64,000 bases of DNA from Peredibacter starrii. GTDB taxonomy: Bacteria > Bdellovibrionota > Bacteriovoracia > Bacteriovoracales > Bacteriovoracaceae. Under the pieces are notes generated by a model. That model did no database searches. It was given only the letters and a program-made list of their open reading frames with translations, and was not told the DNA's origin. Each line of letters starts with the position of its first letter. Positions within the stretch are counted from its first letter, which is position 1. The stretch spans positions 2,728,001-2,792,000 of the forward strand of contig NZ_CP139487.1 of NCBI RefSeq assembly GCF_034259205.1. The letters run 5' to 3'. The translations under genes and the position numbers were made by a program. Below are positions 28,697 through 32,549 of this stretch, piece by piece.

Positions 28697-29158
28697 CTAC
28701 TCCGCCTTAAGATTTTGCTGGATGAGGATACTACATTCGGAAGGATGAGACACTATGAAATCCGCTCCGGCGTCCTTCAAATAATGCATGTCTACATCTC
28801 TGTTCCACACGGCCCCAATTCCCATGACACCAAAGTTCTTTGCTCCCAGCATGTCGTTGAAGCTGTCCCCAATGACACAGATAGAATGCTTCGGGGCCTT
28901 ACCGACTAGATCAATTAGACCTCCCACATGGGGCTTCGGAAAGGAATCATCGATGCAGCAGAATCTATCAAAATAGGAATAAACACCCAGTTCCTCCAGT
29001 ATGCGGAGTGTTGAGGAGCGCCCGCGGGCGGTCCAGACATACAGCAAACAGTGAGGCGAGAGTTCAGCTAAAAGCTCTTTAATGCCAGGAAAGAGTTTAT
29101 ATTTAGACCCGGAGGTATCGATTAAGGTACCGTCGCAGTCAAAAATCACGTGCTTCAT
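28697..29158 (-). CDS. HAD-superfamily phosphatase
   Basis: 153 aa from the ATG at 29158, which puts the catalytic motif VIFDCDGTLID (Asp7, Asp9) at the N-terminus; upstream in-frame codons encode no conserved sequence. Motif II lies in VWTARGR and the acidic motif in VIGDSFNDMLGA. The substrate is unknown; the form resembles small phosphoglycolate-phosphatase-like enzymes with a minimal cap. It overlaps no gene and lies 3 nt before ffh. Confidence 0.9.
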   Translation of the reverse strand: MKHVIFDCDGTLIDTSGSKYKLFPGIKELLAELSPHCLLYVWTARGRSSTLRILEELGVYSYFDRFCCIDDSFPKPHVGGLIDLVGKAPKHSICVIGDSFNDMLGAKNFGVMGIGAVWNRDVDMHYLKDAGADFIVSHPSECSILIQQNLKAE

Positions 29159-29191
29159 ATAGGAAAAGATTTTAATCGTTTCCCCTACATA

Positions 29192-29220
29192 TTTACAACC
29201 ACAAAGGCCCCCTGTACAAA
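29192..29220 (+). promoter_or_regulatory. Candidate promoter for a leaderless dus transcript
   Basis: TTTACA, a 17-nt spacer and TACAAA end 7 nt before the ATG at 29228. The predicted transcription start would fall on or next to the start codon, and no ribosome binding site is visible. Confidence 0.5.
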
Positions 29221-29227
29221 TACCACC

Positions 29228-30322
29228 ATGAATCATCCACGTCCGTTTAGCCCTGAATTGTCTCAGAAAATTGAGTCTTTTAAGTCTCACGCCAAGCCCA
29301 TCAAATTGGGACGAATCGACTTTGATAACAAATTGATCCTGGCCCCGATGGCCGGCATTTGTAACATTCCTTTCCGCGTGTTGATGGAAGACCTGGGCGC
29401 CGGTGGAACGGTTTCGGAGCTGATTTCTTGTCACGGTATCAACTACGGTAACGCACGCACTCTCGATATGCTAAAAATTCACCCCCGTGAAAGAAACGTG
29501 GGTATCCAACTCTTCGGTGAAGACGCCGACTCAATGGCCAAAGCTGCCGAAGTGGCAGAAAGCTACGGGCCAAAATTTCTGGACATCAACATGGGTTGTC
29601 CGGTGACCAAGGTCGTAAGTAAAGGCGGCGGTTCCGCGATGATGAAAGAAGTGCAAAAGCTTGCCCCTCTTTTTGAAAAAATGCGCTCACGCATGAAGGT
29701 TCCGCTTTCAATCAAAATCAGAACTGGTTGGGACGCAAATTCCCTTAACGCTAAAGAGATCATTAATATCGCCCACAACTCCGGCATCGAGTGGGTGGCG
29801 ATTCATGGACGTACTCGTACTCAGCAGTACACGGGTCTGGCGAACTGGGAATTCATCGAAGCTCTGAATGAAGATAAGAAAATTCCTCTCATTGGTAACG
29901 GTGACCTTCACCATCCTTATGGAGTTTCAGAAAGACTTCAGAAAACTGGTTGTGATGCTCTTATGATCGCTCGTGGCGCTCTTAGAAATCCATTTATTTT
30001 CTTAGAATCTCTTGATCCAACATACGCTTCTCAAAAACGCTCCGTTTTCAGCGGTGCTGATTACTGGGAAGTGATTCAACGTCTTCACCACTACTGTTCA
30101 GAATCTTTTGATGAAGAAAGAACTGTGCTGGTGCAACTTCGTAAACTAGTGGTGTGGTTCGCGGCGGGTTTCCCTCATGCGGCGGCCATGCGTGGACAGA
30201 TCTTTGCCACTCAGACAGTTGATGAATGTATGAAAATTGCCGAAGACTATTTCTTGTCTTTGGGCGGTTCTCAGAAATTCATTAATTATGATGAAGTCTT
30301 CATGAGTTCGGGCCACGGTTAA
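29228..30322 (+). CDS. tRNA-dihydrouridine synthase (Dus family)
   Basis: 364 aa flavoenzyme. FMN-binding LILAPMAGICNIPFR, the catalytic Cys124 in INMGCPVTKV, IKIRTGWD, AIHGRTRTQQYTG and GNGDLHHP followed by MIARGALRNPFIF mark a DusB-like enzyme. It reduces uridine to dihydrouridine in the tRNA D-loop. The ATG at 29228 is used because upstream codons lack homology. Confidence 0.93.
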   Translation: MNHPRPFSPELSQKIESFKSHAKPIKLGRIDFDNKLILAPMAGICNIPFRVLMEDLGAGGTVSELISCHGINYGNARTLDMLKIHPRERNVGIQLFGEDADSMAKAAEVAESYGPKFLDINMGCPVTKVVSKGGGSAMMKEVQKLAPLFEKMRSRMKVPLSIKIRTGWDANSLNAKEIINIAHNSGIEWVAIHGRTRTQQYTGLANWEFIEALNEDKKIPLIGNGDLHHPYGVSERLQKTGCDALMIARGALRNPFIFLESLDPTYASQKRSVFSGADYWEVIQRLHHYCSESFDEERTVLVQLRKLVVWFAAGFPHAAAMRGQIFATQTVDECMKIAEDYFLSLGGSQKFINYDEVFMSSGHG

Positions 30323-30345: not shown

Positions 30346-30366
30346 TTTACTTTCGCTGGCGGAAGT
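30346..30366 (+). repeat. Left arm of a perfect 21-nt inverted repeat (operator-like)
   Basis: This 21-nt arm is the exact reverse complement of 30451-30471. The arm also contains an imperfect dyad of its own: ACTTTCGC, TG, GCGGAAGT with a single mismatch. It lies at about -79 to -59 relative to the promoter between the arms. Confidence 0.85.
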
Positions 30367-30389
30367 GATTTTTAACGTTCAAAATGTAC

Positions 30390-30418
30390 TTGACTTGTAC
30401 GTATCTTTTCCGTATTGT
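30390..30418 (+). promoter_or_regulatory. Sigma70-type promoter between the inverted-repeat arms
   Basis: TTGACT, a 17-nt spacer and TATTGT point to the 661-aa secreted-protein gene. The predicted start is near 30425, giving a leader of about 140 nt that contains the right repeat arm. Confidence 0.7.
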
Positions 30419-30450
30419 ATTTGCAAGAGAATTTTTCGGATCGAAAGTTT

Positions 30451-30471
30451 ACTTCCGCCAGCGAAAGTAAA
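30451..30471 (-). repeat. Right arm of a perfect 21-nt inverted repeat (operator-like)
   Basis: Exact reverse complement of 30346-30366. The dyad centres are 102 bp apart, close to ten helical turns, so a protein bound to both could loop over the promoter. No further copy was noticed in the window. Confidence 0.85.
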
Positions 30472-30563
30472 CTGAACTTAAGATCTTAGAATCAGGACAG
30501 GTTGGCCGACGATTGGAATAAAGTACTAAATATCTACCTCCATCTATCCGAAAATAGAAAGGT

Positions 30564-32549
30564 ATGAACTTGTTAGTCCTTCTAGCTCTCATTCCTTTCG
30601 CTTTTGCAGACTCGCCTCCGACGTGTCAGGAGCTGGGACGTTATATTCAGAACTACGAGAAGGACCTTCAAAAGAAGTTTATTCGTGCTCCCGGAACTGA
30701 ATGCCGTAACATTAAATTAGAAGACCTCGGTTCAAATATCCCTCTGAAAAACACAGAACTGATTGAGCAAAACAAGTGCTCAAGCCTTTCGGTGATTGAA
30801 GCTCAGCTTGAGACTTTGAAAAACCAAGAGATGATTCTGACGGGTATTGATAAATTAAAAAATACCATCAAGGACTCTAAGGCGGGTGCCGGGGATAAAA
30901 ACCAGACAGTCGCTCGTGCGGCAGGAAATACTTTCGTTAATAATCTCAATACCGCTCAATCATTTGAGCTTCTTCTTTCGAGTAATACCAAAGACGGAAC
31001 TCCCTTCCTTGCAGAGCTAAAAAAGATCCCTCTGGATAAACGTAACAATCCAACGGACTTTAAAAACGCGGTAAAAGAAATTTGTAAAAACAAGCAAGAG
31101 TCTAATGTCATTGATGCCTGCGTGGATCCGAAGCTTTTCTCTCCTAACCAAGATGCAGTTAAAGAGATCAATGGACTGATTGCTCAAGCTGAACCAAATG
31201 CCGCTCAAATTCAAAAATGGCAGAACATGCTTTCGATCAAGAGAAAGAATGTAAAACCAGAAGAGGCCGGTTACTCATTCACTCAAATGCAAATGGAGAT
31301 GAATGCCGGTTTTGATAAGCTCGATAAACAGCAAAAGCTCTCTCGCGATGAACTTAAAGTGATTCAAAACCTGAACGACTTTGAGAATGGTAATGGTCTT
31401 TCATTTGTTGAAGACCTGGGACTTGCGAAAGATCAATTTAAATCACAGTTCTCTACTGATCGTTTCCGCTTCCTCCTAGAGGACGCGAGACGCCGTCAGC
31501 AATATGAAATCCAGAGTAAGATCTCGATTGCCTGGGCAGATCTGGATAAATCGAAAATTAAATTCGAACAACTGGACATGAACGATTGTAACCTGGCAAA
31601 AGACAGTTACGAGAAGGCCCAGGCCTGTCATTTCATCCTCGAGAATAAAATCAAGGATCAACTGACAGGAGACGCAAGAGCGCATATCTCTGGTCTTCTA
31701 GGACCACTAGGTGTGTCGATTAAGTATGAAAATAAACTTGCTCAAGTGGGAGACACTTGTCTTGATGAAGTTAAAACCCAAGGTGTGATCCCGAGTGGTT
31801 GTCTTAAGGAACTAAGTGCGGAGAAGGCCGATGTTCAGGACAAGATTCTTCAACTCAATCTTCTGAAAGAAAGAATTGGTTTTGAGAATAAAAACCTCAT
31901 GGCCTATAGAAACTTTGCTCTTCTTAAATGGGGCACTCAGAAATGTGATGTGACAGACAGTGTGATTGAATTTTGTGATCCGGAAGATAAAATCTCAAAA
32001 GAGGCCAATGTTCTTTCCAATGCCATGATGGACATTTCACTCGTCTACTCTCCAAAAACCGAAGCAGAAGCAGAAGTTCAAAAACTTTGCGAAGAGAATG
32101 ATTCAAAGAAAAAAGCCGAGGAAAGACTTTGTGCTTTCTTCAATGATACGACTTCAAACATTGTAAAAACTGACCTTCACAAAAAACACGATGTAGACGG
32201 TCCAGTCGTCGCACCAGATGGTGGGAACGCGGCCGCAAAAGAAAGAGACGCCTGGATTCAGGGTGGTACAAATATCTTAAATGAGATCCTTCGCTCTTAT
32301 GTCCCTAATCGCGGAGTAATTTCTGGAATCAATTCTTACCCGTATAACTATGGGGCCTACAACGGTGGCCGTGGTCCAATGGGTATCGCAGATACCATCA
32401 TGTTCAATGCTCGTTATTACGGTGCCTACGGCTACTATATGCCGACCGCCGGTTATCAACCTTATACGGCCTTCGCTTCTTCGACTTCGAGTCTAGGATC
32501 TTATTCGGCCCTTAAAACCACCAGCTACCCTACCTACTTTGGAAAATAG
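30564..32549 (+). CDS. Large secreted protein of unknown function with Gly/Tyr-rich C-terminus
   Basis: 661 aa with a short signal peptide (MNLLVLLALIPFAFA). The mature part is mostly helical, with about a dozen cysteines and a coiled-coil-like Lys/Glu/Gln-rich centre, then a Gly/Tyr/Ser-rich tail from about residue 570 (YNYGAYNGGRG, YYGAYGYYMPTAGYQPY). I do not recognise the family. AAAGG ends only 2 nt before the ATG, so the in-frame TTG at 30570 with 7-nt spacing may be the real start. Its promoter is bracketed by a perfect inverted repeat. A large lipoprotein gene follows. Confidence 0.85.
   Translation: MNLLVLLALIPFAFADSPPTCQELGRYIQNYEKDLQKKFIRAPGTECRNIKLEDLGSNIPLKNTELIEQNKCSSLSVIEAQLETLKNQEMILTGIDKLKNTIKDSKAGAGDKNQTVARAAGNTFVNNLNTAQSFELLLSSNTKDGTPFLAELKKIPLDKRNNPTDFKNAVKEICKNKQESNVIDACVDPKLFSPNQDAVKEINGLIAQAEPNAAQIQKWQNMLSIKRKNVKPEEAGYSFTQMQMEMNAGFDKLDKQQKLSRDELKVIQNLNDFENGNGLSFVEDLGLAKDQFKSQFSTDRFRFLLEDARRRQQYEIQSKISIAWADLDKSKIKFEQLDMNDCNLAKDSYEKAQACHFILENKIKDQLTGDARAHISGLLGPLGVSIKYENKLAQVGDTCLDEVKTQGVIPSGCLKELSAEKADVQDKILQLNLLKERIGFENKNLMAYRNFALLKWGTQKCDVTDSVIEFCDPEDKISKEANVLSNAMMDISLVYSPKTEAEAEVQKLCEENDSKKKAEERLCAFFNDTTSNIVKTDLHKKHDVDGPVVAPDGGNAAAKERDAWIQGGTNILNEILRSYVPNRGVISGINSYPYNYGAYNGGRGPMGIADTIMFNARYYGAYGYYMPTAGYQPYTAFASSTSSLGSYSALKTTSYPTYFGK

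Follow-up and report, generated by a model that had tools for sequence, protein, structure and literature searches.

A palindrome-bounded unit beside dus in Peredibacter starrii, probably a short derivative of a dispersed element that carries an HNH nuclease gene

To our knowledge, the interspersed palindromes of bacterial genomes have so far been tied mainly to RAYT transposases. In these REP/REPIN systems (REPtrons), short palindromes are dispersed mostly intergenically and form inverted doublets, cognate repeats are found beside the nuclease gene, and some copies lie in genes (PMC3116915, PMC3733652). A second repeat family, REP13E12/DUF222-HNH, is named from Mycobacterium (PMC10589994). 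The locus described here lies in Peredibacter starrii, within a stretch of 64,000 nucleotides (hereafter the window), and consists of a pair of inverted palindromic arms around a promoter-like sequence in the interval between dus and a gene for a 661-aa secreted protein. The features of this interval are as follows, in window positions:

29150..30322, + strand: dus (tRNA-dihydrouridine synthase), to the left of the insertion (Pfam Dus, 1.1e-69; synteny)
30346..30471, + strand: short unit, two dyads around a promoter, gene probably lost (interior alignable to the promoter regions of HNH genes, score 61 versus a shuffled maximum of 42)
30346..30366, + strand: left 21-nt arm, which holds the 18-nt dyad 30349-30366 (exact repeat)
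30347..30373, + strand: hairpin followed by T5, resembling a terminator for dus transcripts (consensus match only)
30390..30418, + strand: promoter-like TTGACT-N17-TATTGT (homologous to the HNH-gene promoters, TTGACA..CCGTATMTTTTCCGTATTGT)
30419..30447, + strand: probable remnant of the HNH-gene start (TTTGCAAGAGAATTTTTC versus CTTGCAAATAAAATTTTAC; start codon lost; weak)
30451..30471, - strand: right 21-nt arm, which holds the dyad 30451-30468 (corresponds to the dyad inside the HNH gene)
30517..30556, + strand: conserved motif AATAAAGTACTAAAT...TATCCGAAAATA between the unit and the 661-aa gene (probable native promoter)
30564..32549, + strand: gene for the 661-aa secreted protein, to the right of the insertion (no family match reached the cut-off)

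The two 21-nt arms (left arm, TTTACTTTCGCTGGCGGAAGT) are exact reverse complements with centers 102 bp apart, as the preliminary description had stated, and they extend to 28 nt at 89% identity. This pair is the only exact inverted repeat in the window with arms of at least 18 nt within 200 bp, and it is far beyond chance, given that only 0.05 inverted repeats are expected in simulated sequence even at 14-nt arms. The promoter-like sequence between the arms is also present as described, with 9 of 12 consensus matches; taken alone it is a weak match, since sites at this level occur 0.6 times per shuffle of the region. The dyad has no further copy within the window, in agreement with the earlier observation, and an Rfam search of the window returned no match.

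Across the 4.15-Mb genome, the 18-nt dyad occurs at 48 places with at most two mismatches (14 exact, 16 with one, and 18 with two). Counting forward and reverse pattern matches at the same threshold, there are 62, versus 0 for a reversed-pattern control. The preliminary description had itself proposed this search, and had named a scattered unit as the outcome that would count against its reading; such scatter is what the genome contains. Single dyads are mostly intergenic and often adjoin terminators, with contexts judged by open frames only. Five short units, including the one in the window, form doublets of the two palindromes in inverted order, in which both dyads and the promoter are kept and the gene is lost; for each of them, none of 300 shuffles equaled the alignment of the interior to the HNH promoter region. 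Inspection by eye of the flanks of the listed dyads revealed no constant tetranucleotide or GTAG tag.

Other repeats were recorded in the same genome. Tandem arrays of dyad-like units are present at G000 1235188-1235380, 2666947-2667144, and 3180569-3180749 (L090, L091, and L101), with periods of 25, 18, and 54 nt, respectively. At 746793-750200 (L096), a RAYT-like Y1 gene is near three copies of the repeat GTCCAAAAGGTGCCAGGTT, followed by a dyad look-alike, and the same repeat also adjoins dyads at 2934229 and 3450929.

The gene-bearing form of the unit is found with a family of ten HNH-nuclease gene copies, nine near-full and one truncated, which encode a protein of 280-289 aa and are 73-90% identical to the query copy. 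A dyad is located just upstream of the promoter of these genes (TTGACA-N17-TATTGT-type), roughly at least 14 bases away. In nearly all copies, a second dyad occurs in frame at approximately codons 204-210, where it encodes SLSPAKVGR directly before the HNH domain. The in-gene dyad of one copy is interrupted by 18 inserted nucleotides, and the unit of the truncated copy stops at the dyad; a third dyad downstream of the gene is absent from the full copies. The paralogues form one clade relative to other genomes (support 0.996), with dS of 1.61 and dN/dS of 0.074, such that synonymous sites are saturated. At codons for the same residue, third-position identity is 62% gene-wide versus 0.93-1.0 in the dyad codons, and the in-gene dyad is the strongest peak of synonymous constraint (top 4 of 275 windows). 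This peak indicates that the dyad is kept as DNA, and not through the protein alone, while the age of the paralogues gives no indication of recent movement. A phage origin of the element was considered and rejected, as viral contigs gave only one match, to the HNH part alone; an initial contig scan with a single protein query gave no match. A divergent paralogue at G000 1985425-1986324 (L100) has its own palindrome, ACTTCGACGTCGAAGT, upstream; four exact copies of this palindrome are present in the genome, and its scattered copies include those at 1964208, 3639829, and 3903357.

The encoded protein has two predicted domains. All 35 family members examined match PF01844 (HNH), and the HNH catalytic motif is present, with D241 H242, N256, and the CxxC pairs invariant. 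Nine of the 35 touch DUF222 weakly, and the protein of this genome misses the PF02720 (DUF222) cut-off (14.7 versus 24.4 bits). In a structural model of one relative (pLDDT 88.8), residues 208-280 match HNH nucleases, and the dyad-encoded stretch falls in a low-confidence linker (residues ∼204-208), so that the dyad is predicted to code for a disordered linker between the two domains. Residues 18-135 of the same model match ParB, Noc, Spo0J, and KorB before all else, also when this domain is predicted alone. These proteins occupy VIA ranks 1-12 with Z of 8.6-5.5, which is above unrelated rows and under 13, the caution line for helical folds; the top Foldseek matches are of ParB/Noc type with E of about 0.4, a structural likeness only. 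Identification as ParB by sequence was rejected, with no hhalign match (including to the ParB of this genome) and no PDB-profile match. The resemblance of the N-terminal domain to the parS-binding domain of ParB/Noc is thus a good prediction, and not proof.

Relative to other genomes, the unit is an insertion. The dus and 661-aa genes are adjacent in 14 relatives, none of which has a dyad in this interval even at 5 mismatches. The gap between the genes is 49-94 bp in 11 of the 14 versus 244 bp here by the same measure, and the other three have a different inserted gene or frame there (L135, L136, and L140; a short-chain dehydrogenase-like frame in two), which suggests that the gap is a repeated insertion place. 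No target-site duplication is visible at the window unit in comparison with the relatives, and the insertion boundary is not sharp. Outside the unit, a motif common to the relatives (TAAAGTACT...TCCGAAAATA) immediately precedes the start of the 661-aa gene. It resembles the consensus of sigma28-type promoters, a likeness offered as a lead only. The promoter between the arms, previously assigned to the 661-aa gene, is instead the inherited promoter of the HNH-nuclease gene. In the 14 relatives, the 661-aa gene keeps its position behind dus without the unit, and a conserved motif of its own lies upstream. Any dedicated role of the unit for this gene is probably small or absent, although a side effect on it is possible.

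Relatives of the HNH gene are widespread in Bdellovibrionota. Their palindromes differ from the one described here and likewise occur both upstream and within the gene; in several of the genomes they are also scattered. Two genomes (G001 and G018) have CCGG-centered dyads in the same two places, plus scattered copies. In a Bdellovibrionaceae genome, ACCCGCGCCGGCGCGGGT has 13 exact copies (control, 0), including upstream and linker-codon sites, and in an Oligoflexales genome, CACTCCGACGTCGGAGTG is found at 8 places, with one set around and in the HNH gene. The palindromes ACTTYCGCCGGCGRAAGT and GACTTCATCYRGATGAAGTC are also among those found in this layout in other lineages. Genome G014 has its second palindrome at the stop codon. 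The dyad pair is absent from many members of the HNH family, and in G010, which has a gene with the dyad pair, the predicted scattered copies were not above control. The HNH genes of two relatives (L187 and L188) have AGTTTTCACCAGTGAAAGTG upstream, which is close to the classical parS half sites, TTTCAC/GTGAAA.

Several explanations can be weighed for this locus. Paired operators, at which a looping regulator bound to both arms would control the 661-aa gene together with the downstream lipoprotein gene, were suggested by the promoter match and by the perfect arms on either side of it, spaced by approximately ten helical turns. We consider such a switch, private to the 661-aa gene, to be very unlikely, given that the dyad and similar units are dispersed through the genome, and that relatives keep the syntenic 661-aa gene without the unit and share its native upstream motif. 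The proposed ten-turn spacing is not general either: the five short units are spaced at 102, 107, 95, 104, and 179 bp, and this range (95-179 bp) implies no fixed helical phase. As a whole, the earlier reading is mostly wrong and partly supported: the dyads probably do bind protein and lie next to a real promoter, but the binder is predicted to be the HNH protein, which has a ParB-like domain. That the arms are merely transcription terminators that have spread is highly improbable. The left arm with its T5 is terminator-like, and several single dyads adjoin terminators; however, the right arm has no T run, many copies are without a T tract on one strand, and a terminator within the HNH coding sequence would be harmful.

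The paired inverted palindromes also resemble REPINs (PMC3116915), and the genome has four Y1_Tnp loci, such that a RAYT (Y1 transposase) could have moved the repeats, with the HNH genes as chance hosts. We regard this as unlikely: none of the four Y1 loci is flanked by the dyad at up to two mismatches, the RAYT at 748515 being among its own, different repeat and 3-mismatch look-alikes and the other three having no dyad nearby, whereas the palindrome tracks HNH subfamilies across the phylum, both upstream and inside the gene. Somewhat less unlikely is a dispersed chromosome-site system under host selection (as in Noc-NBS or MatP-matS), with the HNH protein as the site-reader and movement only historical. 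The predicted ParB/Noc-like fold would fit such a system, as would the near identity of the dyads despite saturated synonymous sites. The chromosomal origin is near 254 kb, where dnaA, dnaN, recF, and gyrB are located with parAB nearby, and the 30 independent dyad loci center at 2.386 Mb (Rayleigh p 0.0045), near the antipode of the origin (2.33 Mb). However, this signal comes mainly from the HNH copies, and no significant clustering is seen for the dyads outside HNH genes taken by themselves (p 0.13); accessory DNA often collects near the terminus anyway, and an intact HNH nuclease would be odd in such a role.

The best reading of these observations is a REP/MITE-like system in which a ParB-like HNH protein takes the place of a RAYT, and of which the window feature is probably a short, non-autonomous derivative. 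The full element would comprise the 18-nt dyad, a sigma70-type promoter, the gene of ∼285 codons, whose product combines a ParB/Noc-like DNA-binding domain at the N-terminus with an HNH nuclease at the C-terminus, and the second dyad in the codons of the interdomain linker. The HNH protein may bind the dyad as its own site, and at the upstream copy it could repress or tune its own promoter. Cutting or nicking at the dyads may favor the copying of segments bounded by dyads to other intergenic sites, where segments without the gene would persist as short doublets, such as the window unit, or as single dyads. We tentatively suggest, with somewhat less than even confidence, a new element class in Bdellovibrionota, either selfish or domesticated, in which a ParB-like HNH nuclease reads a lineage-specific palindrome that is located upstream of its gene as well as within it and spreads this palindrome across the chromosome, with the palindrome and the protein evolving in concert. 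No description of such a system emerged from literature searches that paired HNH with palindromic repeats or with Bacteriovorax, a search on 13E12 with HNH found no paper, and the DNA-cutting protein family is apparently undescribed. If this reading is true, a second type of enzyme would have matched palindromes, repeat populations of this sort would have had more than one origin, and a DNA-binding fold of chromosome partition would be linked to a nuclease. For the window, a supposed regulatory switch is removed and the feature is explained as inserted DNA; its own importance for the neighboring gene is probably small, and it is the family that is of interest.

In comparison with known systems, the element shares with REP/REPIN the intergenic dispersal, the inverted doublets, the cognate repeats beside a nuclease gene, and the occasional copies in genes. 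It differs in that the protein is an HNH nuclease with a ParB-like domain rather than a Y1 HUH transposase, one repeat is inside the nuclease gene itself, and no GTAG tag is seen. As in MITEs, there are short inverted-repeat units that apparently arose by internal deletion of a gene-bearing unit, but no target duplication is seen, and the full units here do not have a terminal repeat at each end. The multicopy chromosomal HNH genes are reminiscent of the REP13E12/DUF222-HNH family of Mycobacterium, for which we know of no dispersed cognate palindrome. Finally, a predicted DNA-binding fold paired with a palindromic site of about 16-18 bp is in common with ParB-parS, Noc-NBS, and KorB-OB; unlike these, the HNH protein has an HNH nuclease instead of a CTPase domain, and sites inside its own gene.
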